Assembly: GCF_000331305.1 (NCBI RefSeq)
Contig: NZ_KB217478.1
Span: 2,570,151 to 2,634,150, forward strand
Direction: 5' to 3'
Source of the DNA: Calothrix sp. PCC 7103
GTDB lineage: Bacteria; Cyanobacteriota; Cyanobacteriia; Cyanobacteriales; Nostocaceae
DNA length: 64,000 nucleotides
Under the pieces are notes generated by a model. The model was given only the letters and a program-made list of their open reading frames with translations. It ran no database searches and was not told the origin of the DNA. The translations under genes and the position numbers were made by a program. Positions 1,101 to 13,747 of this stretch are shown one piece after another (the stretch's first letter is position 1; each line of letters starts with the position of its first letter).

Positions 1101-2513
1101 ATGTTGGAAACAAAGCTCCGAGGACGCTACCAAATTATCCGGGACTTAGGTAAAGGAGGATTTAGCGAGACTTATCTGGCTCTTGATATGGATTTACCTG
1201 GGAATCCTCATTGTGTTGTCAAGCTGCTAAAGCCTATATTTACAGATTCTGAGTCTTTAGAAATTGCCGCGCGTTTGTTTGAGCGTGAAGCTCAAGTACT
1301 ATATAGAGTCGGTACTCACGACCAAATTCCACGACTTTTGGCGCATTTCGAGGAAAATCAAGAGTTTTACCTAGTTCAAGAGTATATTCCCGGAACTCTC
1401 CTCAGTAAAGAATTAGCCAAAGGGCAAAAATGGAGTGAGGAGCAAGCTATTAATTTTTTAAAAGATTTGTTACAGATATTGGAGTTTGTTCATACAGAGC
1501 AAGTTATTCACCGTGATGTTAAGCCAGCAAATCTAATTCGACGTGCCTCTGATAATAAAATTACTTTAATTGATTTCGGCGCCGTTAAAGAAATTACAGC
1601 GGTAATGGAAACAAGTCAGGGTATTACAGTAATTGGTACCCCTGGTTATACACCTGTGGAACAGCGTGATGGTAATCCTAAGTTTAATAGTGATATTTAT
1701 GCTGTGGGAATGACTTGTATTCAAGGACTAACGGGTATAAATCCTGATACGCTACAAAAAAAACCCGAAGTTGTCTGGAATAAGCAGGACGTTAACCCCC
1801 AATTAGCAACAATTATAGATAAAATGGTTTGCCGTGACCATCGGCGCCGATATCAGTCAGTTCCAGAAGTTTTACAAGCACTGTCAAAGCTCGAACAACC
1901 CACACTATTAGAGTCGCTATGGAACACTAAGAAAAAAGTCGTATCAGTATCTGTGATTACTATATTAATAATTTCAGTAGCTTTTTTACCAGTGACGCAT
2001 AAAATTATACAGCAGTTAATGACTGTGCCACAGTTATTGTTTCCTGTAAATTTTTCTGTTTACGAAAATTTAAATTACGCAATCAAAATCAAATATCCTC
2101 AAAATTGGGTCAAAAACGAAGTTGAAGATAAAACGACAGGTGAACTAGTTCGATTTTCCCCTTATGACAGAAATAATTCAGATACAGGCGCCGAGGTAAT
2201 ATTTGAAGTACAGCCTTTGAAGCGACCGCTTGTATTATCAGAATATACAAATTTAAAAGTCAACGAAATAATCCAGTTTTTCCCGGAAGCAAAAATACAC
2301 GAATCACGGTCTATCACGCTACCGAATATACTACTACCAACTCATGAAGTAGTTTATTCTGGCAAAGATAATAAACTAGGTATTAAAAGAAAAGCTGTTT
2401 GGACTGTTAAAGAGAATACTGCGTATATAGTCACTTATTCTGCTACTGAAAGCGAATACGATAAATATTTAAGTACTGCGACTACGATGATTAATTCTTT
2501 AGAATTATTGTAA
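1101..2513 (+). CDS. Membrane Ser/Thr protein kinase with C-terminal PsbP-like domain
   Basis: A Hanks-type protein kinase of 470 aa. The glycine-rich loop is LGKGGFSETYLA (about 16-27), the catalytic loop is HRDVKPANL (His137) and the metal-binding DFG is at 158. A single hydrophobic segment (about 285-303) probably crosses the membrane. The remaining 150 or so residues (YAIKIKYPQNW...) resemble PsbP/MOG1-like alpha-beta folds, placed here as an external sensor by inference. AAGGG lies 8 nt before ATG 1101 and supports this start. The 3' end overlaps the convergent response regulator by 9 bp. The substrate and signal are unknown. A fragment of a second kinase of this type lies near 16.5 kb. 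Confidence 0.9.
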   Translation: MLETKLRGRYQIIRDLGKGGFSETYLALDMDLPGNPHCVVKLLKPIFTDSESLEIAARLFEREAQVLYRVGTHDQIPRLLAHFEENQEFYLVQEYIPGTLLSKELAKGQKWSEEQAINFLKDLLQILEFVHTEQVIHRDVKPANLIRRASDNKITLIDFGAVKEITAVMETSQGITVIGTPGYTPVEQRDGNPKFNSDIYAVGMTCIQGLTGINPDTLQKKPEVVWNKQDVNPQLATIIDKMVCRDHRRRYQSVPEVLQALSKLEQPTLLESLWNTKKKVVSVSVITILIISVAFLPVTHKIIQQLMTVPQLLFPVNFSVYENLNYAIKIKYPQNWVKNEVEDKTTGELVRFSPYDRNNSDTGAEVIFEVQPLKRPLVLSEYTNLKVNEIIQFFPEAKIHESRSITLPNILLPTHEVVYSGKDNKLGIKRKAVWTVKENTAYIVTYSATESEYDKYLSTATTMINSLELL

Positions 2514-4391
2514 GCGACCCCTTTCGAGCCGATTTAGTATGCGAGTAATTAATTCTGGTTCTAGAATTGGCTTATTCAGGTAATCATCTGCACCTGCCAT
2601 AAATACCTGATTTATTGTTTGTGCATCTTTACGACCAGATAAAAATAGTATTGGTAAATGATTCCAATATGGGTCGTTTCGCACTACTTGGCATAAATCT
2701 ATACCACTAATGCCACTTAACGACATTTCCGTATCTAAGATTAGCAAGTTGGGATTAAAGGAATTCAATGTGTCCCAAAATTGTTGGGAGTTATTTAGCA
2801 AAGTTAGCTCAAATCCCCAAGTTGACAGTAAAGTGCGTAAAGTTTCTAACATTTGTGAGTCAGAGTCCACAACCATAATTTTGGCGCCAGTGACATTAGC
2901 ACGCTGTAGCACCTGAATAACTGCTGCCATGACTGAGGCAGGAATTACAGGTTTATGTAAAAAAAATTGTGCCCCTAAACGAGCTACTTTTAACCGATAA
3001 GTAAAATCTTCAACTTCCGTAAATACCAGCACGGGCAAAGCCAAATTATTACTCGTTAGTTCTGCTAATAGTTCTAAGGCACTTTCAACTGAGTTAGAAA
3101 AGTGTAAGTCAAGTAGTACTACATCTGGTAAATTTTGTGCGATTACGTCTTTAACATCAGTAAGTGGCGCCACAAAAGCTTCTATTCCAAACAATGCAGC
3201 TTCCTCTATCAACTGCTGACAAAGCAAAGTATCATTATCCATAATTAACAACCGGGGTTGTTGTTTCATATTAGCGAAACGCTGCCTTTGGAAGTGTTTC
3301 GCTACCGTAACTGGTGCGTCGAATACTGTTGCTCGTTCAAGTTCTTGCCGTAAGGCGACAACAAGTTGCGAGAGACGTTGAACTTGAGCAATACTTTGTT
3401 GTATTCCAGCCCGAAAAATTTTTTCAATCTCACGAGATAAACACGAAGCTTCAGTTAAACCAAAGCTAGCTAGAGACCCAATTAACATGTGTGCTTCTGC
3501 CTGTGATTGTTGTGCGACTTCTTCAGTTTGTGTACCAACAAGCAACGCCGTAATATTTTGTTCTAAACTTGTAACCTGTTCGCTGTACTTAGGCTTAAAT
3601 CGTTTCCAAATGTCGGGCAATGCTGAAGAAAGTTTTGGTTGATACTGATTTACTACAGTCCCGTCAATTTCTGTAGATTGGGAGTCAAACTCTTTCGCAG
3701 TTGGGAGTTTAAGTTGATCTAATCCTAATTTCAGCCGATACCCAAATCTGTGAACTGTCTCAATTAAATCATCCGCCCCAGCGAGCTTAAGTTTTCGCCG
3801 TAAAGCCTTGATATGCGCTCTGACAGTATTTACTAAAGGCATTTCTTCAGATGACCACAAATAATCGAGCAGCATTTCTTGAGTAAATATCCGCTTACTG
3901 TTACGCAAAAATAGTTCTAATAGAGCGTATTCCTTTGCAGTTAAATGCAAAAGTTGCCCGTTGCAGGTGACTTGACAGTTACTTGTATCAAGTTTGACAT
4001 TTCCTGCCTGAATTGTTGAAGAGCGAGTCGGAGTTTTGCGACGCATCAAAGCGCGTATCCGAGCGAACAACTCATTCGTGTCAAAAGGCTTAATAACATA
4101 ATCATCCGCTCCTGCATCTAACCCAATAACTTTGCTTGTACTACTGTCTAAAGCTGTTAATAGCAGAATGGAGGTATCATTTTTTTGAGCGCGTAGCTGT
4201 CTGCAAAACATTAAACCATCCAGCTTTGGCAACATAATATCTAATAACACTAAGTCATAAGCAAACATTTGGGCAAGCAAAAGTCCAGTCTCACCATCAG
4301 AAGCCAAATCGACTGTATAATGCTGATGTGTAAGAATATTTTTCAACACAAGAGCGGCGCCTTCATCGTCCTCTACTAATAGAATTTTCAT
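2505..4391 (-). CDS. Multidomain OmpR-family response regulator (REC-wHTH-HPt-REC-REC)
   Basis: 628 aa. Residues 1-118 are a receiver domain with phospho-acceptor Asp51 (LVLLDIMLPKLDG) and the KPF motif. Residues about 128-225 are an OmpR/PhoB winged helix (LTAKEYALLELFL, VHRFGYRL). Residues about 255-350 look like an HPt domain, with AEAHMLIGSLASFG supplying the candidate phospho-histidine. Two more receivers follow: about 377-490 (VVLLDLHF) and about 500-620 (LLILDTEMSLSGISG). Such chains can run an internal phosphorelay. A PhoB-like direct repeat sits 130 bp upstream of its start, in the divergent promoter region of the small coiled-coil gene at 4687, a plausible target (inference). The cognate kinase is unknown; the PAS kinase at 7879 is a neighbour candidate. 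Confidence 0.9.
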   Translation of the reverse strand: MKILLVEDDEGAALVLKNILTHQHYTVDLASDGETGLLLAQMFAYDLVLLDIMLPKLDGLMFCRQLRAQKNDTSILLLTALDSSTSKVIGLDAGADDYVIKPFDTNELFARIRALMRRKTPTRSSTIQAGNVKLDTSNCQVTCNGQLLHLTAKEYALLELFLRNSKRIFTQEMLLDYLWSSEEMPLVNTVRAHIKALRRKLKLAGADDLIETVHRFGYRLKLGLDQLKLPTAKEFDSQSTEIDGTVVNQYQPKLSSALPDIWKRFKPKYSEQVTSLEQNITALLVGTQTEEVAQQSQAEAHMLIGSLASFGLTEASCLSREIEKIFRAGIQQSIAQVQRLSQLVVALRQELERATVFDAPVTVAKHFQRQRFANMKQQPRLLIMDNDTLLCQQLIEEAALFGIEAFVAPLTDVKDVIAQNLPDVVLLDLHFSNSVESALELLAELTSNNLALPVLVFTEVEDFTYRLKVARLGAQFFLHKPVIPASVMAAVIQVLQRANVTGAKIMVVDSDSQMLETLRTLLSTWGFELTLLNNSQQFWDTLNSFNPNLLILDTEMSLSGISGIDLCQVVRNDPYWNHLPILFLSGRKDAQTINQVFMAGADDYLNKPILEPELITRILNRLERGRLQ

Positions 4392-4520: not shown

Positions 4521-4548
4521 TTCACAAAATATTCACTTAAGTATTTTA
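4521..4548 (+). promoter_or_regulatory. Promoter-proximal direct repeat (copy A), OmpR/PhoB-like
   Basis: TTCACAAAATA is followed directly by TTCACTTAAGT and ATTTTA. The TTCAC half-sites repeat with an 11-bp period, the spacing typical of OmpR/PhoB-family operators. The same 28 bp recurs with 2 mismatches at 7317-7344, in both cases upstream of the paralogous small coiled-coil genes. Function as an operator is inference. Confidence 0.55.
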
Positions 4549-4562
4549 AATTTACAATTATC

Positions 4563-4579
4563 CAGAAACCAGGTTTCTG
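4563..4579. repeat. Short palindrome CAGAAACC-A-GGTTTCTG
   Basis: A perfect 8-bp inverted repeat with a 1-nt centre, lying between the copy A motif and the small gene. The form (CCAGAAACC-GGTTTCTG) is a common dispersed cyanobacterial intergenic palindrome. It could form a short hairpin in the leader of the small gene. Confidence 0.5.
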
Positions 4580-4686
4580 TCTAAAGAGTATTATTTATGT
4601 ACTGAGTGTGTTAGTTTACTTTATTAATGCAATTTTATTAAAAGCATCGTTACAATTACAGACCAGCCAAACGGAGTAATTGAAAG

Positions 4687-4881
4687 ATGTTTAAGAAAAT
4701 GTCTTATAAAATACGTCGTTTAAAGAGTCAAATTAAAGTATGTACACGGGCTGAATATAATCAAAGCTGGCAACTCAAAGAGGAAGTAGATATGTTGAAG
4801 TCAGAAATAGAAAATTTCAACTTAGAATTTGAATGCAAAATTGACGAGATGCAACAGATAATATTATTAGCAAATTATTAA
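4687..4881 (+). CDS. Small basic/coiled-coil protein, paralogue of the protein at 7434
   Basis: 64 aa with no recognised family. The N-terminus (KMSYKIRRLKSQ) is very basic, and the rest is heptad-like and probably coiled-coil (LKEEVDMLKSEIENFNLEF). The protein at 7434 shares KMSYKIRR-KSQ and the coiled-coil pattern, and the upstream DNA is also conserved (28-bp motif plus GAGTAATT before the start). GGAG stands 10 nt before ATG 4687; an alternative start is the MSYK methionine at 4699. Conservation of both protein start and promoter supports a real gene. It ends about 400 bp before ftsH. Function unknown. Confidence 0.65.
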   Translation: MFKKMSYKIRRLKSQIKVCTRAEYNQSWQLKEEVDMLKSEIENFNLEFECKIDEMQQIILLANY

Positions 4882-5290
4882 ATAGTAAATGATTAAATGT
4901 TATTTATATTTTTCAGTATTCACCAAGGGATTTGGAATAGATTTTGAGAGTTAATAATCATAGACTTTTTAAAGCAAGTATTAATTTTTACTTCTCATTT
5001 AACCTCTTACTAAAGGATGATTTTATTGAAAATATTACTTAGGTTATTGAAAAACAATCCTCTTTTAGAAAGAAGGTTATTTAGTATTATTTTTGTAAAC
5101 TAGATACATATGCAAAAGGAATAATAGTTAAGCAAAATATTAACAAATTAATCTTAACTATCAAACGAACCGATTGCAATATAGAAGCGACACTTTTCAC
5201 CATAATTGATTTACAGCAGGCAACTATAAGTATTAAGCATGTTAGCTAACACAAATAAAACGTCTCGAATTATAATAATTGGTAATTGCG
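4882..5290. other. AT-rich intergenic region upstream of ftsH
   Basis: About 400 bp of AT-rich sequence without a convincing gene on either strand. It must hold the ftsH promoter. TATAATAAT at about 5271 is a possible -10 element close to the start. No copy of the 28-bp motif is present here. Confidence 0.5.
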
Positions 5291-7159
5291 ATGCCAATTA
5301 AAGAACAACGAACTCCCACGCCTTCGCGTATAATCGGTAACATTGTTCTGGCTGTATCAGCTTTGTTCCTGATTACAAATTTTATATTGCCTTTTGTCGT
5401 AGGTTCTCAAATTCCCGGTGTTCCCTATAGCCTGTTTATCCATCAAGTGGAGGCAGGGGAAGTTGAGCGGGTGCAAGTTGGTCAAAATCAGATTAAATTT
5501 CAATTGAAACCCGTCGATAACGAGTCTGGAACTGTGTTTTCGACTACACCCATCTTTGATTTGGGATTACCCAAGTTGTTAGAAGAGAAAGGTGTTGAAT
5601 TTGCCGCTGCTCCTCCACCTAAAAATGCATGGTTTACCAGTGTTTTGGGTTGGGTGATTCCACCTTTAATTTTTGTGGCTATCTGGCAGTTTTTTATCAG
5701 ACGAGGTGGTGGTGGCGGACCCCAAGGTGTTCTCTCGATTGGTAAGAGCAAAGCCAAAGTTTATGTAGAGGGAGAATCTGATAAAACGACCTTTGCCGAT
5801 GTGGCTGGGGTACAGGAAGCGAAGGATGAGTTGGTTGAGATTGTGGATTTTCTCAAAACTCCAGGACGCTACACCGAGATTGGTGCCCGGATTCCCAAGG
5901 GAGTACTGCTGGTAGGACCACCGGGAACTGGTAAAACGTTGTTGGCTAAAGCCGTGGCAGGAGAAGCAGGTGTGCCATTCTTTAGTATCTCTGGCTCTGA
6001 GTTTGTGGAACTTTTTGTTGGCGTAGGTTCTTCACGAGTTCGTGATCTGTTTGAGCAGGCAAAGAAACAAGCTCCCTGCATCGTGTTTATTGATGAATTG
6101 GACGCAATCGGCAAGTCTCGCAGCAGTGGTGGGTTTTACGGTGGCAATGATGAGCGCGAACAAACGCTCAATCAGTTGTTAGCAGAAATGGATGGATTTA
6201 GTGCAGAAGGTGCAACAGTAATTGTGCTGGCAGCCACAAATCGCCCTGAAGTGTTAGACCCCGCTCTCTTGCGTCCTGGTCGATTTGACCGTCAAGTGTT
6301 AGTAGACCGTCCAGATTTGTCGGGACGAGAAGCAATTCTCAAAATCCATGCTCGGAAAGTAAAACTCGGTGAGGACGTTAATCTGAAGGCGATTGCAACT
6401 CGCACCCCCGGTTTTGCTGGGGCAGACCTAGCAAACCTGGTAAATGAAGCGGCTTTATTAGCAGCCCGCAATCAACGTTCTAACGTTGCTCAAGAAGACT
6501 TTGCCGAAGCGATTGAACGGGTGGTAGCAGGTCTTGAAAAGAAAAGTCGTGTCCTCAACGACAAGGAAAAGAAAATTGTTGCTTACCACGAAGTCGGTCA
6601 TGCCCTGGTCGCTTCTTTAATGCCTGGAAGTGGTCGAGTTGAGAAAATTTCTATCGTGCCTAGAGGTATGGCAGCACTGGGTTATACGCTGCAACTGCCA
6701 ACTGAAGATAGGTTCCTTATGGACGAAGCAGAACTCCGAGGTCAAATTGCCACCTTACTTGGTGGACGTTCAGCCGAAGAGGTTGTGTTTAACAGTATTA
6801 CTACTGGTGCAACCAATGATTTGCAGCGAGCGACAGATTTGGCAGAGCGGATGGTGACTACCTACGGGATGAGCAAAGTCTTGGGACCGTTGGCTTACCA
6901 GCAGGGACAGCAGGCTATGTTTTTGGATAATGGGGCACCTAATCCCCGCCGAATAGGAAGTGAAGAAACGGCACAGGCAATTGATCGTGAGGTGAAAGAA
7001 ATTGTAGAAACGGCTCATCAGCAAGCTTTAGATACACTTAAGCTCAACCGAGACTTACTTGAAGAGATTACCACTCAACTTTTAGAGACAGAAGTTATTG
7101 AGGGTGAGAAACTGCAAAGTTTGCTTAAGCAGGTTCAGGCGATAATGCCACCACTCTAG
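5291..7159 (+). CDS. ftsH: ATP-dependent zinc metalloprotease FtsH
   Basis: FtsH is a hexameric membrane AAA+ protease that extracts and degrades membrane proteins; in cyanobacteria family members handle photodamaged photosystem II proteins. From ATG 5291 it is 622 aa, a normal length. Two membrane segments (about 16-38 and 110-130) flank a periplasmic/lumenal domain. Walker A is GPPGTGKT (209-216), Walker B is [12 protein letters not shown], the second region of homology is [20 protein letters not shown], and the zinc site is HEVGH (433-437). The frame opens with TTG at 5279, but ATG 5291 fits the family's usual start (MPIKEQ). A strong hairpin terminator follows. It is bracketed by the two small coiled-coil paralogues. 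Confidence 0.97.
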
Positions 7160-7201
7160 GTTAGTTTCATTTCACGTAAACCAACTCACGCAAATATTTT
7201 T

Positions 7202-7244
7202 ACGGCGCCTTTGATTCGATTAGCACATCCAGGCGCCGTTTTTT
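7202..7244 (+). terminator. Rho-independent terminator of ftsH
   Basis: ACGGCGCCT (7202-7210) and AGGCGCCGT (7231-7239) are perfect inverted arms around a 20-nt loop, followed by six T. Both arms contain the overrepresented GGCGCC hexamer. Confidence 0.8.
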
Positions 7245-7316
7245 CGTGTGGTCATAACTTCATCTTTACCCTTAGCCCGATATTTTTGTATTATTTTTCT
7301 CTAATTGACTAATTTA

Positions 7317-7344
7317 TTCACAAAATCTTCACTTAAATATTTTA
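7317..7344 (+). promoter_or_regulatory. Promoter-proximal direct repeat (copy B), OmpR/PhoB-like
   Basis: TTCACAAAATC followed by TTCACTTAAAT and ATTTTA, with the same 11-bp period as copy A at 4521 (26 of 28 bases identical). It lies 90 bp before the paralogous small gene. Conservation beyond the coding part suggests shared regulation. Confidence 0.55.
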
Positions 7345-7433
7345 CTTTAATAATTAGAGCGAATAATTTTTTAATAACACTTTTTTGGAGCTAAACTTGC
7401 GCCGGGTTTACTTAGCTACAGTTGAGTAATTAA

Positions 7434-7790
7434 ATGAGGTTTGATAAAATGTCTTACAAAATACGTCGTTCAAAGAGTCAGGTTCAAGAATTTAGAGGTA
7501 TTGAAACTAATCAAAGCGGACAACATCAAAATTTAGTAGAAATTTTGATGTCAGAAATTCAAAATTTAAATATAGAATTACGCTGCAAAACTCAACAACT
7601 AGAATATATCAAGTCTTCGAGAGATATAGAGCAAGAGGTATATTGTTTAGTTATATCAACATTGCTAAATAGTGATGATGAAGAGGAATTATCTAAAAGG
7701 TTGGGAGAGTTAGATAAGCTGCTCAATAATCTGATAAATGATTTATTAAATGTTTTTTATACCTCAGAGTATTCAGCAAGACAACAGTAG
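7434..7790 (+). CDS. Small coiled-coil protein, longer paralogue of the protein at 4687
   Basis: 118 aa, unknown family. The N-terminal motif KMSYKIRRSKSQ matches the 64-aa protein at 4687, as does the following heptad region (LVEILMSEIQNLNIELRCK). The C-terminal half is extra: an acidic stretch (NSDDEEELSKRLGELDKLLNNLINDLLN) with strong helical heptads. Start ATG 7434 is conserved with the paralogue; a second ATG at 7449 has AGG 9 nt before it. The gene lies after the ftsH terminator and before the PAS kinase at 7879, with a stem-loop between. A role as a small scaffold or regulator is inference only. Confidence 0.65.
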   Translation: MRFDKMSYKIRRSKSQVQEFRGIETNQSGQHQNLVEILMSEIQNLNIELRCKTQQLEYIKSSRDIEQEVYCLVISTLLNSDDEEELSKRLGELDKLLNNLINDLLNVFYTSEYSARQQ

Positions 7791-7878: not shown

Positions 7879-9006
7879 ATGACTATTGACAACTATAAGT
7901 TTATTGAGTCGAATTCTAAATTTTTCTTACAAATAGAAGAATCGAATTTTGCTCAAGTCCTAATAAATCGGACTACAGAAGCTGCATTTTGTTTAGGAGC
8001 AAATGGGAAATTTATTTACGTCAATAATGCAATCTGTCTCAAGAGCGGATATTCCCGTGAGGAATTACTATCCATGACTGTAGATGAGATAGACATAGAT
8101 TTTTCACCACAACTTTGGTCAGAATTATGGCAAACATTGAAATTGCATTCCTTAAGCTATGAATCTCGCTACCGGGCAAAAACAGGTGAAATAGTAAAAG
8201 TAGAAGTTACTGTCAGTTATGTCGAAGATAAAGGTCAGGAATTTTGTTGTGCTTTTACTCGTGAAAAAAATGAACAAGTAGTGGAGCTTTGCCAAGCTTT
8301 AGAACAAGAAAAACAACTTGGTGAACAGAAAGAGCGTTTTGTTTCTATGCTTTGCCATCAATTTCGTACTCCATTAAATGTTGCGTCATTTTCTGCTGAT
8401 TTACTTAAACGTCATAGTCACCAATGGACTGAGGAAAAGAAATGCTCATATTTCGGTTTAATTCAACTTGGTATTAAACAAATTAGTGAATTGCTGGATG
8501 AAATTTTGTTGTTTGGTAAGGTAGAAGGTGCTTTATTAGAGTTTCAACCCAGAGAAATCGACTTAAATCTGTTTTGTCATGAGATTACTTTTCAGGTAGA
8601 GTTGGCACATAAGGAGCAAATATCAATCAATTTTATTAGTCAAAATAAGTCTATAACTGCGGATTTAGACCCGAAAATGCTACAGCTTATTTTAACAAAT
8701 TTGCTCTCAAATGCAATCAAGTATTCACCTGGAAATAATAGTGTCATATTGGAGCTATATAGTCAAGATAACAATATAATTTTTCAAATTAAAGATACAG
8801 GTATTGGTATTCCGTTAGAGGATAGAGAACGAATATTTGAGCCATTTTATCGCGGTAGCAATATTGATAGTATTCCCGGTACTGGTTTAGGGTTATCGAT
8901 TGTTAAAACCATTGTGGATTTACATGGTGGTGAAATTTTTCTAGAAAGTCAACTCGGTGTAGGTACGACCTTTACTGTCACATTCTCATCTGTAATTCAC
9001 AAGTAA
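7879..9006 (+). CDS. PAS-domain sensor histidine kinase
   Basis: 375 aa and soluble (no membrane segment). A PAS domain covers about 24-130. A short coiled coil (about 133-152) leads into HisKA with H-box CHQFRTPL (His160), N-box NLLSNAIKYSP, G1 DTGIGIP, F-box FEPFYRG and G2 GTGLGLSIV. It autophosphorylates on His and passes phosphate to a receiver. No receiver is fused, so the partner must be separate; the OmpR-type regulator at 2505 and the receivers at 9482 and 59206 are the ones in this window. Ligand of the PAS domain unknown. Confidence 0.9.
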   Translation: MTIDNYKFIESNSKFFLQIEESNFAQVLINRTTEAAFCLGANGKFIYVNNAICLKSGYSREELLSMTVDEIDIDFSPQLWSELWQTLKLHSLSYESRYRAKTGEIVKVEVTVSYVEDKGQEFCCAFTREKNEQVVELCQALEQEKQLGEQKERFVSMLCHQFRTPLNVASFSADLLKRHSHQWTEEKKCSYFGLIQLGIKQISELLDEILLFGKVEGALLEFQPREIDLNLFCHEITFQVELAHKEQISINFISQNKSITADLDPKMLQLILTNLLSNAIKYSPGNNSVILELYSQDNNIIFQIKDTGIGIPLEDRERIFEPFYRGSNIDSIPGTGLGLSIVKTIVDLHGGEIFLESQLGVGTTFTVTFSSVIHK

Positions 9007-9077: not shown

Positions 9078-9485
9078 ATGCAGAAAAATCACCTTGAAGT
9101 TTTAATTACAAATTTTTCATTATCTAGTATTGAAGATTTAAAGTTATTGCTATCTAATAGCGAAACTGAGGGAAATTGCTCCCCAACCAAATTATTCAAT
9201 GCTCTAAAAATTATCGAAAATATTTTATCAATTCTCGAAATAAGTTTTCATGAAATTAGTCGCAATGAACGGATGGTAGCTCAACTAGAAAATACGACAA
9301 AAAAAGATAACTTAGTTATAGAATCATTTGAGCTTAATGGTGCAAGACCAGAAATTGAAGATAGAGTAGAGCTTTTGCACGAGCAAATAGAAACTCTAAA
9401 GCAAATGCTGCATTATAAACAGTTAGAGTTACAAGAAGTAAGACAAGAATTGGATAATGCAAATGAGAGGTTGTACGGTACTTAA
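9078..9485 (+). CDS. Small protein with C-terminal coiled coil, unknown
   Basis: 135 aa, not recognised. Residues 1-70 look helical (SIEDLKLLLSN, LFNALKIIENILSILEISF). Residues about 92-132 are a clear coiled coil (LLHEQIETLKQMLHYKQLE, VRQELDNANERL). It follows the PAS kinase by about 70 bp on the same strand and may be co-transcribed with it. Its stop overlaps the stop of the convergent CheB-CheR hybrid by 4 bp. It does not share the MSYKIRR motif of the other two small coiled-coil genes. Confidence 0.6.
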   Translation: MQKNHLEVLITNFSLSSIEDLKLLLSNSETEGNCSPTKLFNALKIIENILSILEISFHEISRNERMVAQLENTTKKDNLVIESFELNGARPEIEDRVELLHEQIETLKQMLHYKQLELQEVRQELDNANERLYGT

Positions 9486-12400
9486 TTCTCCGCAATCCTT
9501 CTAGCTAAATTTGCAACTGCAAATGCTAATCGATCAGGAGGTACAGGTTTAGTCAAGTGCATTTGGAAACCTGCTTCAAGTGCAGCTGTAGTATCTTCGC
9601 TGCGGGCATTCGCTGTTAACGCTGCGGCAGGTATTTGTCCGTTAAATTCGGCGCCTAATTGTCGAACTCGGCGAATAAATGTATAACCATCTTCTCCTGG
9701 CATACTGATATCAGAGAGTAACACATCATACCCGTTGGGGTTGGCAATTAAGGATTCTATGGCATTCTCAGGTGTAGCAACTGTTGTAACGTCGGCGCCA
9801 TATCCTTCGAGTACCACTGTAAATAACTCACGCACATCTGGAGCATCATCCAAAATTAAGACTCGCACACCCGCTAAAGATGTAATATCTTCAACTGGCA
9901 TGGATATGTTAACGGCGCCTAATAATGGTGTCGCAGGCTTTGAAATTCGAGTTTGCAACGGCAGTCTAACAGTAAATGTCGCTCCCTGTCCTTCACCCAA
10001 ACTATTAGCGCTAACTGTACCACCATGAAGTTCAACTAAGTGACTAACAATTGCTAACCCAAGCCCAATTCCAGGATTGGAGCGACTTTGGGAACTATCC
10101 GCTTGGCGAAAGCGGTCGAAAACATAAGGCAAAAAGTCCGCGTTGATGCCTTGACCAGTGTCGCTGACTTGAATTTGTGCTATAGAGTCAACATATTCTA
10201 ATTTAATTTCCACTCGTCCACTTGGGGGAGTAAATTTAATCGCGTTAGTGAGTAAATTCCAGACGATTTGCTGTAAGCGAACTGGGTCGCCAAGTATTTG
10301 TTCAGGAGCAGCATCAAGCGTAGAGATAATTTGAATTTGTTTTGCATCTGCACTAACCCTAACTACCTCAATCGCTGCTTCTATTATTGGGGTAAGTTGA
10401 ATTGAACGGGCATCCAAACGCATTTTGCCAGAGCTAATGCGGGAAATGTCCAATAAATCCTCAATTAGTTGAGTTTGGATTTTAGCACTGTTTTCGATTG
10501 CCTCAAGCCCACGAGCAAGTTTGCTAGAATCAACTTTGTGCCTGCGGAGCAACTGCGCCCATCCTACTAGAGAATTAAGTGGGTTCCTCAGTTCGTGCGA
10601 GAGGATGGATAAAAACTCATCTTTACTGCGATTCGCTGCCTCTGCCGCTGCACGAGAGGACTGTTCAAGCTCCAAAAGTTGGCTGCGCTCACGCTGTAAC
10701 TGTTCTTGCTGCGTAATGTCATCAATTGCCAAAAGTATCATTTCCTGATGGTGTGGTTGAGACATTCTACGGGCATTTAGCATCATGATTTTATATCCAA
10801 TTTGCTCAAACTCATGCTCAACCACTAGGTTTTTAAACTCAAATAACTGGCTATTGCTGGGAACAATTTGTTCTAAAAGCTCACGCAAATGGGGAATATC
10901 CCATTGTCCATTCCCTAATTCAAAAATATGGCGCCCTTCAACTTGAGTTGCTGTAACCTCAAAAGTCTCATAAAAAGCCCGATTTGCGGTGATGACTTGT
11001 AAGTTGGCATCTAGTACCACCAAAGGTTCCCGCATTGTCTCTACAATCGCTTGAGCATAATTTCGCGATTCTGACAATTGCTCGGCGCTGCGTTTAAGCG
11101 CGTCAATATCCACCAACATCATTACTGCACCATCAATTTTATTGTCTATGGTTCGGTAGGGACGAATTCGCAAGTCATACCAATGCCCTTGTTGATCTTG
11201 CACCTCCTGCTCTTTAGCACTAAAGGTATTAATCACGGACAAAATTTGTTGCTCTAAGTCTGGGACATTGAGATTATGATTAATATCACCTAATGGGCGC
11301 CCAACATCGGTGGGAATCAAGTTGAGAATTTGTCGTGCTTGGGGTGTAAAGCGACGAATTCGGATGTCGGCGCCTAACATGACAATTGGAATATTAGTAC
11401 TACTAAGTAAATTTTCTAAATCGTTGCTGAGTTGGTTTAATTCATAATTGCGCCGACACAGTTCGTCGTTAACGGTGTTTAATTCTTCATTTGTGGCTTG
11501 AATTTCTTCTTTGGCGGTTTCGAGTTCCTCATTCGTACTTTGCAATTCTTCATTGCTGGAGAGAATTTCCTCGTTGGCAGCTCTTAAATCTTGATTAGAC
11601 GCTTCCTGTTCTTCTATAACCGATTGTAAATGCTCTTTGGTAGAACGAAGTTCTTGTTCGAGCCGAGCAATTTCTTTATCATTTGTTGGCTTTTTGCCAG
11701 TCTTACTACTAATTGCTGCTAACTTAGGCGCCGTTGGGGCATCCTCAAACAAAATCAAAAAGTAACGTTCTTCTAATGTGCGCGCTTTAAAAGGAATAAT
11801 ACTAACATTCACCAACCGCTCCTGCTGGTTTTCCCAGATTTGCAAACCTTGTTTTATAACTGGCACGTCTTGTTTTTTTGCCTGCCCAGCTGCGGTACGG
11901 ACTTCTAACCGCAAGTCTTCTCGAACCATTTTGAGCAGATTTAAACTAGCCCTTCCCGGAGCTGGTTCGAGATAGCGACTCGTCTGTCCGCGAAATTGCA
12001 AAATTTCTAAATCAAAGTTTGTGACTACGCCAGCTGGAGCATAGCGGTTCAAGATTATTCGATCTGCTTCTTTCTGCAAATCAAGGTCGGTAAAAGCCTC
12101 TTTGTTGATTTGGGAACTATATTCTACTAAGTTTAAAGGATAGTTGTTGGTAACTACATCTAGGGGTAGTCTCGATGGAATCAACTTGCGCGCGTAAATT
12201 TTGTACTTTTTGTCAACCAGCGAAAACAAGTCTAAGAATTCCCCCACGGTTTCCGAGGTTCCTAACATCAAAAATCCGCTTGCTTTTAAAGCATAGTGGA
12301 AAGTAGGCAAAATTTTCTTCTGCAAAGTTGCCCCAAAATAAATCATTACATTCCGACACGTAATCAAATCGAGCTTAGAAAATGGGGGGTCGGCGCATAA

Positions 12401-13747
12401 ATTTTGCTTGGCAAACACACAGAGTTCTCGCACAGGCTTACAAATTTGATAGCCATTGTCTTGTTCTACAAAAAACCGTCGCAGACGTTCTGGTGAAATA
12501 TCTGCCATCTGACTGTGTTTATAAACACCTAGCCTAGCTTTTTCAATAGCACTTTCACTGATATCGGTAGCATAAATCTGAATCGCAGGCGCCAGGGGTT
12601 GTGTTTCTAAAAATTCCAGTAAGCAAATTGCAATTGAATAAGCTTCTTCTCCAGTTGAACAACCCGCTACCCAGATGCGGATGGGTACCGAAGGCGATTT
12701 ATCTTTTGTAATGATGGGAAATACTTTAGTTTTCAAAGCTTCAAAAGCTTCAGAGTCACGCATAAAACTGGTGACATTAATCAAAACATCTTCGTACAGC
12801 GCTTGTACTTCTGCAGGATGGTTTTGGAGAAATATCACATAATCTCCCAACCGCTCGATTTGGTACAGCACCATACGCCTTAAAATTCGCCGCTTCAAGG
12901 TAGTGTGTTTGTAGTAGGTAAAATCAACTCCTGTAGCAATCCGCAGCAATGCAAAAATACTTTGTAAGGCATTTTTGCCTTCTACTAATTCCTCTGCATC
13001 CTCAGCGACATTTACCAATGCGGTATCGGCGACGTAGGGATGACAGCTGATTTTTTCTAACTCAGTAGCAATTTCATGCGGCGTTAAAATGAAATCTATA
13101 TGCCCGGTAGCAACGGCGGTATTAGGCATACTACTAACTTGTGCCGTATTTTCACACTGAGCAAAAGTAATTCCCCCAGCTGCCTTAATTGCCTTTGCTC
13201 CCAGTGCGCCATCACCATCACCCCCTGATAATACGATTGCGATGGCTTTGTTTCCGCGCTCCTTCGCTAGCGAAAAAAAGAAAGTATCAACGGTCATCGC
13301 CACTCCGCGAGTCTTCTCACGAGGCATCAGTTTTAATACCCCACCAGATATAACCATTTGCTTATTTGGGGGAATCACATAAAGCTGGTTCGGTTCTACG
13401 GTAGTATCATCAACCACTTCATGCACTCGCATCTGAGTTGCACGCGATAGAATCTCCCTTAACAAACTTTTATGATCTGGTGATAAGTGTTGCACCAGCA
13501 CGAATCCCATGCCAGTATCAGTTGGCAAATACTGTAACAGTTGTGTAAAAGCTTCTAATCCACCCGCAGACGCTCCAATGCCAACAATGGGAAATATATT
13601 CGAGTTTCCTTGCTGCTCTCCATTAGGCGCCGACTTTTCGGTACGCTGAGGTTGATATTTCTTCTTAGCAGGTCGCTTGTTCATTAATGAGGTAGCTCTC
13701 GAAAAAGGTAAAAAATGTAACCCTTGGTTTAGAGCTTTCGGTTTCAC
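9482..13747 (-). CDS. CheB-CheR-PAS hybrid histidine kinase with C-terminal receiver
   Basis: 1421 aa. CheB-like methylesterase domain (about 52-235): active-site Ser in GIGASAGGLEA, VQHLSPDH and VLSGGDGDGALG. CheR-like methyltransferase domain (about 255-510): WVAGCSTGEEAYS and DLITCRNVMIYF. A long Glu/Asn-rich coiled coil with repeated SNEELQSTNEELETA units (about 690-780) is typical of CheB/CheR-PAS proteins. PAS regions follow, then HisKA (FLSILSHELRNPL), HATPase (DTGQGINADFLPYVF, GIGLGLAIV) and a receiver (LLSDISMPGEDG). Start is GTG 13747 or ATG 13684 (MNKRPAKKK); the first 21 residues look non-conserved. No chemoreceptor genes are adjacent, so a non-chemotaxis signalling role is likely (inference). 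Confidence 0.93.
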   Translation of the reverse strand: MKPKALNQGLHFLPFSRATSLMNKRPAKKKYQPQRTEKSAPNGEQQGNSNIFPIVGIGASAGGLEAFTQLLQYLPTDTGMGFVLVQHLSPDHKSLLREILSRATQMRVHEVVDDTTVEPNQLYVIPPNKQMVISGGVLKLMPREKTRGVAMTVDTFFFSLAKERGNKAIAIVLSGGDGDGALGAKAIKAAGGITFAQCENTAQVSSMPNTAVATGHIDFILTPHEIATELEKISCHPYVADTALVNVAEDAEELVEGKNALQSIFALLRIATGVDFTYYKHTTLKRRILRRMVLYQIERLGDYVIFLQNHPAEVQALYEDVLINVTSFMRDSEAFEALKTKVFPIITKDKSPSVPIRIWVAGCSTGEEAYSIAICLLEFLETQPLAPAIQIYATDISESAIEKARLGVYKHSQMADISPERLRRFFVEQDNGYQICKPVRELCVFAKQNLCADPPFSKLDLITCRNVMIYFGATLQKKILPTFHYALKASGFLMLGTSETVGEFLDLFSLVDKKYKIYARKLIPSRLPLDVVTNNYPLNLVEYSSQINKEAFTDLDLQKEADRIILNRYAPAGVVTNFDLEILQFRGQTSRYLEPAPGRASLNLLKMVREDLRLEVRTAAGQAKKQDVPVIKQGLQIWENQQERLVNVSIIPFKARTLEERYFLILFEDAPTAPKLAAISSKTGKKPTNDKEIARLEQELRSTKEHLQSVIEEQEASNQDLRAANEEILSSNEELQSTNEELETAKEEIQATNEELNTVNDELCRRNYELNQLSNDLENLLSSTNIPIVMLGADIRIRRFTPQARQILNLIPTDVGRPLGDINHNLNVPDLEQQILSVINTFSAKEQEVQDQQGHWYDLRIRPYRTIDNKIDGAVMMLVDIDALKRSAEQLSESRNYAQAIVETMREPLVVLDANLQVITANRAFYETFEVTATQVEGRHIFELGNGQWDIPHLRELLEQIVPSNSQLFEFKNLVVEHEFEQIGYKIMMLNARRMSQPHHQEMILLAIDDITQQEQLQRERSQLLELEQSSRAAAEAANRSKDEFLSILSHELRNPLNSLVGWAQLLRRHKVDSSKLARGLEAIENSAKIQTQLIEDLLDISRISSGKMRLDARSIQLTPIIEAAIEVVRVSADAKQIQIISTLDAAPEQILGDPVRLQQIVWNLLTNAIKFTPPSGRVEIKLEYVDSIAQIQVSDTGQGINADFLPYVFDRFRQADSSQSRSNPGIGLGLAIVSHLVELHGGTVSANSLGEGQGATFTVRLPLQTRISKPATPLLGAVNISMPVEDITSLAGVRVLILDDAPDVRELFTVVLEGYGADVTTVATPENAIESLIANPNGYDVLLSDISMPGEDGYTFIRRVRQLGAEFNGQIPAAALTANARSEDTTAALEAGFQMHLTKPVPPDRLAFAVANLARRIAEN

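Follow-up and report, generated by a model that had tools for sequence, protein, structure and literature searches.

Why should two small open reading frames (ORFs), one on either side of ftsH in Calothrix sp. PCC 7103, be preceded by almost the same DNA? We addressed this question in a 64,000-nucleotide stretch of the genome (hereafter, the window), for which a first-pass annotation had proposed an OmpR/PhoB-type operator and a regulon of small paralogous proteins that may scaffold or tune FtsH or the nearby kinases. The features concerned are as follows.

2505–4391, reverse strand: RcaC-like regulator with the domain order REC-wHTH-Hpt-REC-REC (Pfam), presumed to bind the operator.
4521–4548, forward strand: predicted operator copy 1, with a TTCAC-N6-TTCAC core, 129 bp from the start of the divergent regulator gene.
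4687–4881, forward strand: 64-aa ORF, truncated and probably a decaying coiled-coil copy, judged by sequence comparison and its counterparts in congeners.
5291–7159 (ORF called from 5279), forward strand: ftsH (Pfam), an ordinary neighbour, possibly downstream of operator copy 1.
7317–7344, forward strand: predicted operator copy 2, past ftsH and 117 bp ahead of the 118-aa ORF.
7434–7790, forward strand: intact 118-aa member of the coiled-coil family, identified from its relatives, a profile search and a structure model.

The upstream likeness reported at both ORFs was confirmed, with 26 of 28 positions identical between the two sites and TTCAC present twice in each at an 11-bp period. Searched as a degenerate 28-mer, allowing 3 mismatches at most, the site matched just these two places in the 64 kb (mean of 100 shuffles, 0.00). 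Tandem direct repeats at a spacing of about 11 bp on one strand are the arrangement of OmpR/PhoB-class operators, and a third, weaker half-site (TTACT/CTACT type) lies 11 bp upstream in most copies of the site. Copy 1 occupies the gap between the regulator gene and the rightward genes, and this neighbour does carry an OmpR-type wHTH, as annotated. The regulator is a 628-aa protein that also contains three receivers and an Hpt domain (Pfam); its Asp51 and Hpt His301, which from knowledge of the domain families we take to be the phosphate-bearing residues, are invariant in 10/10 aligned rows.

The specificity of the repeat depended on the stringency of the search. In 11 of 217 family genomes the 19-base core TTCACAAAATNTTCACTTA was present, at 19 sites in total (reversed control, 0), and a shorter core gave 27 sites in 17 of the 217 genomes versus 4 for the control. 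Counting against the operator model, the loose pattern TTCAC-N6-TTCAC was unspecific in the genome (17 matches vs 23 in the control). Little was gained over the control with a 20-mer allowing 3 mismatches (9 vs 7), and a consensus promoter scan was uninformative (13 observed vs 9.4 expected). A scan of named genomes returned 36 matching stretches, 16 of them cyanobacterial (Calothrix, Dulcicalothrix, Hassallia, Tolypothrix, Scytonema, Chlorogloea and Gloeocapsa) and 20 scattered elsewhere; by a rough estimate the latter are at about the chance level and look like background. The 24 bases upstream matched the Calothrix consensus at 13–19 positions in the seven sites from other cyanobacterial genera, compared with 2–12 positions in the 20 non-cyanobacterial sites, ranges that almost meet. 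In a limited literature search, neither 16-base core was found in any paper.

Next to the site, the regulator recurs. All 11 genomes with the 19-mer hold a close relative of the regulator (67–100% identity; some truncated, and one, in G024, split), and the next relatives, among the matches listed, share at most 55% identity (strict E-value; best five candidates scored per genome). In two further genomes (G117 and G208), the 19-mer differs by one base and adjoins a truncated relative of 63% identity. In Gloeocapsa, an exact site adjoins another 63% relative, which has a GGDEF-like tail as read by eye. In the 13 loci examined, each with regulator and site on one stretch, the regulator was divergent from the site (13/13), with its start 122–738 bp away. 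In G024 (L066:10634–13812), a 540-aa ORF interrupts the regulator, and the operator, coiled-coil and receiver genes are kept. The co-occurrence of site and regulator is in part physical linkage, as few sites lie away from the regulator (one in the window genome, G000). Site-bearing stretches that are free of the regulator comprise the second sites of the Calothrix loci, G000 contig 12, G006 contig 13, two further G003 loci (one with one mismatch), two in Chlorogloea, G209 and G217, the last resembling background. In Chlorogloea CCALA 695, the two extended-site copies (L112:3504 and L132:1822) have no regulator within the 8 kb examined; among the genes that follow are an unannotated 98-aa ORF, with an NYN-domain gene behind it, and a short-chain dehydrogenase.

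More distant paralogues of the regulator were informative about its DNA preference. Of 22 such paralogues (47–55% identity), six carry an exact TTCAC-N6-TTCAC no more than 400 bp away on the divergent side, a number reached in 0/2000 first-order resamplings (mean 0.0145). When the motif was not fixed beforehand and spacers of 3–15 bp were allowed, TTCAC/TCACA/CACAA at the same spacing was the commonest exact 5-mer direct repeat, at six loci. Extending the upstream region to 1500 bp gave an exact repeat in 8/22 paralogues, and in 0/22 on the other strand. The repeat is absent from 14/22, which counts against the operator model, and 5 of the 8 repeat-bearing paralogues belong to a single group located next to KaiC- and KaiB-like genes and are therefore not independent. 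The Kai-linked genes were Pfam-checked in G225 and are alike by sequence in G152, G227, G013 and partly G226. In four loci (L099:6488–11565, L100, L101 and L102), a paralogous regulator stands with a KaiC-like gene, a pair of KaiB-like genes and a receiver-only gene in divergent orientation, and the gap contains TTCACAACTAnTTCACAA; this arrangement is possibly a Kai-linked relay. When the 400-bp limit was applied to eight orthologues of the regulator, the two without a match were G006, with 72 bp of upstream sequence, and G027, with its site at the edge of the limit.

On a tree of 34 regulators, the motif bearers required 2 changes compared with a shuffled mean of 10.6 (0/500 as low), a count that near-copies favour; three rows within the clade are without an exact site. 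Motif bearers here include G200, G024b and G027 (sites 870, 469 and 397 bp upstream), G117 and G208 with their one-base variant, and G006, in which regulator and site are on different contig ends; the broken regulator of G017, the split one of G024 and a G000 paralogue (L108, no start found) were omitted. By computation, the site is conserved and specific, and it is linked to and co-occurs with the regulator. Based on the linkage, the co-occurrence, the repeats upstream of paralogues and the clustering on the regulator tree, the adjacent regulator very probably uses the site as its operator. The annotated reading is supported to this extent: the repeat behaves as an OmpR/PhoB-class operator of the adjacent regulator would. 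The first-pass annotation had staked its proposal on further homologues and motif copies in related genomes; a genome search found more copies of both, tied to the regulator in other genera, and on this count the proposal was not refuted.

OmpR-class regulators are numerous in these genomes, and the site might instead belong to another of them, for example a global regulator of the RpaB or RppA type, with adjacency to the present regulator as a by-product. Indeed, regulator residues 1–221 score 283.8 bits against the RppA model NF041734 (cut-off 250), so its DNA-binding type is not unique, and the Gloeocapsa site precedes a second OmpR-type regulator gene. RppA itself is a simple REC-wHTH protein of ∼229 aa, whereas our regulator has 628 aa, an Hpt domain and two more receivers. 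Since the 19-mer occurs solely where the genome also has relatives of this regulator, and since paralogues in other loci retain the repeat upstream, we consider ownership by another regulator unlikely.

We then asked which genes follow the site. After the 19 exact sites, the first gene was an intact coiled-coil gene in 10 cases, a coiled-coil remnant in 2 (4687 in G000, and G005) and a position from which the coiled-coil gene has been lost in 1 (G006). The others were CheR in 2 (G002 and G004), a PAS-CRP regulator in 2 (G027 and G113), a receiver-only gene in 1 (G000 contig 12) and, in 1, the G006 counterpart of that site without the receiver gene. In G113, a coiled-coil gene and a scytonemin-class kinase come after the PAS-CRP gene. 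These genes bear on whether the repeat is an operator at all, because the window has two copies before two related ORFs, a pair that could stem from one duplication: the repeated DNA might be a duplicated promoter block or a mobile element that travels with the small genes. However, unrelated genes (CheR, PAS-CRP and receivers) also follow the site, and across genera the core is kept while the flanks diverge, making such a passive origin very unlikely.

Other genes near single sites were also noted. The receiver-only protein under the unlinked operator copy on G000 contig 12 (L067:8873–9376) looks, by eye, altered at the usual Lys position and may therefore be a pseudo-receiver. In G006, an orange carotenoid protein gene lies 282 bp downstream of the contig-13 site. 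We considered a link to this protein and set it aside: the corresponding site on G000 contig 12 has a receiver gene, the stretch with this gene is missing from G006, and the carotenoid neighbourhood is therefore probably secondary. In G003 (L057:9912–15534), the operator and coiled-coil gene are followed by a gene for a 1648-aa protein that has nSTAND1 and WD40 repeats and, as read by eye, a caspase-like start.

The two small proteins share the N-terminal start MSYKIRR.KSQ, as annotated, and align with 49% identity over residues 3–59 of the longer one (E 4.7e-10). They were not borne out as two working paralogues: 4687 is a remnant and 7434 the intact member. The 4687 counterpart is broken or missing in 4/4 congeners with this ftsH locus: the G005 copy has a frameshift and stops, those of G002 and G004 are remnants containing stops, and G006 has none. 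Relatives of the 118-aa protein beside the motif are 27–87% identical to it. A family profile search, which the annotation had suggested, found members in 26/217 genomes, many of them longer proteins. The family occurs in 12/13 family genomes with motif and regulator; the profile search of the 217 genomes found no member in the exception, G027. It also extends to genomes without the motif; this and the G027 exception count against the operator model. The structure model of the 118-aa protein consists of a long helix and a second, shorter one (pLDDT 82.7, pTM 0.42). Its best Pfam match was below the cut-off (E 0.01; 16.4 vs 29.1 bits), and NCBIfam gave no match at 0.1.

Do these proteins act on FtsH? 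As adaptors or scaffolds of this protease they would have a ready partner, since ftsH sits between the two copies in G000, G002, G004, G005 and G006, site 1 lies 699–816 bp before ftsH in G006, G000 and G005, and the lone G209 site is 4.6 kb from a 92% identical FtsH. Yet ftsH was not seen in the stretches read for G003, G027, G113, G120, G011 and G024, all of which retain the regulator and motif, and five of these six (not G027) keep a coiled-coil gene. Relatives elsewhere adjoin CheB or receivers. The annotated role in scaffolding or tuning FtsH was therefore not borne out, and as the main role we rejected it, with ftsH unseen beside the locus in G003 and in the other genera read. The ftsH neighbourhood is probably incidental, and FtsH adaptors are a highly improbable identity for the family.

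The other partner proposed for the small proteins, the nearby kinases, is compatible with the gene neighbourhood. Three further genes of the window are relevant here.

7879–9006, forward strand: short PAS histidine kinase, a paralogue of the scytonemin-class sensor kinase (comparison with NF045595).
9078–9485, forward strand: 135-aa coiled-coil protein with a weak relation to the family (profile match, E 6.2e-5).
9482–13747, reverse strand: CheB-CheR-PAS hybrid histidine kinase with a C-terminal receiver (NCBIfam), the presumed phosphate donor.

The CheB-CheR hybrid kinase adjoins the regulator in 9/10 regulator loci, the exception being an 11-kb Hassallia contig, and also in Gloeocapsa. At the far side of the regulator, window positions 1101–2513 encode a Ser/Thr kinase fused to a PsbP-like domain. 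The short kinase at 7879–9006, flanked by coiled-coil and CheB-CheR genes, scored 477.9 bits against NF045595, under the cut-off of 865, and matches by its C-terminal half. Full-length forms pass this cut-off in PCC 7102 (910.5 bits) and in Hassallia (960.8 bits). As other full-length copies are found elsewhere in G000, G004 and G113, the window kinase is best read as a paralogue. One of these other copies, in Hassallia, adjoins a 276-aa receiver protein and an acetolactate-synthase-like gene (scyA-like, by eye). We considered scytonemin control for the locus, given the class of this kinase, and rejected it in view of those full-length copies. The scytonemin two-component system NpF1277/NpF1278 of Nostoc punctiforme represents the same class as the kinase at 7879–9006, but the window copy is short. 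The published description of NpF1278 refers to AraC/XylS regulators (PMC2726228).

Taken together, we favour, with a probability of about 0.65, a circuit in which the site is the operator of the adjacent regulator, phosphate arrives by a relay from the hybrid kinase, the output feeds back, and the coiled-coil proteins serve as adaptors. Regulator subunits would sit next to each other, one per TTCAC half-site at the 11-bp spacing, and would control signalling genes close by. The regulator's own gene may be among these targets, given that copy 1 is situated in its divergent promoter region. Phosphate would most likely pass from the His of the CheB-CheR hybrid kinase to its receiver, then to the Hpt domain of the regulator and on to the first receiver of the regulator, whose phosphorylation would switch DNA binding. 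The genes controlled would mostly be signalling parts (coiled-coil proteins, receiver-only proteins, CheR and PAS-CRP regulators), and so the circuit would feed back on itself. The coiled-coil proteins would probably be small adaptors of kinases, a guess drawn from their fold and neighbours. On the feeding kinase, the signal, and activation versus repression by the site, we can only infer.

A bolder variant gives the coiled-coil family a chemotaxis-style role, as small soluble and perhaps methyl-accepting partners of CheB and CheR. The regulator would then raise its coiled-coil partner (in two genomes CheR too) and retune the CheB-CheR hybrid kinase, and the circuit would be a receptor-free adaptation system wired to a promoter. 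Hints in this direction are the CheR genes after the motif in G002 and G004, the hybrid kinase at 9/10 loci, and a lone CheB beside family relatives in 3/13 further loci (Pfam check of one; 13 of 29 loci, L145–L173, read). We regard this variant as quite unlikely.

RcaC, which has the layout REC-wHTH-Hpt-REC, binds the L box, a pair of direct repeats (TTGCACA-N4-TTGCACA) spaced at 11 bp, and controls light-harvesting genes; rcaE and rcaF adjoin rcaC. The window regulator includes this layout. It differs by one more receiver, by having CheB-CheR hybrid kinase and coiled-coil genes as neighbours, and by its putative operator TTCACAAAATATTCACTTA. Among seven window proteins scanned (Pfam), no RcaE-type (phytochrome-type) photoreceptor kinase was recognised, and a limited literature search found no paper pairing RcaC with a CheB-CheR kinase. 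RcaC of Fremyella diplosiphon chromatic acclimation is described as a multi-domain OmpR-class regulator that ends a phosphorelay and binds the L-box at the promoters it controls (PMC8256508). CdgK/CdgS of Anabaena PCC 7120 is a worked-out His-Asp-His-Asp relay via Hpt in a filamentous cyanobacterium (PMC9927289). Its Hpt is on the kinase and its output is c-di-GMP synthesis, whereas in the window it is the DNA-binding regulator that carries the Hpt. The proposed transfer from hybrid kinase through Hpt to receiver fits the locus, and CdgK/CdgS provides a precedent for such chemistry.

Filamentous cyanobacteria have many multi-receiver regulators without assigned DNA targets. Our genome comparison gives one clade of these regulators a specific candidate operator and a short list of targets, and draws attention to an unannotated protein family associated with CheB/CheR-type kinases. 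A repeat of this type is also found next to paralogues in KaiC/KaiB-linked loci, which suggests that the result is not limited to one genus.
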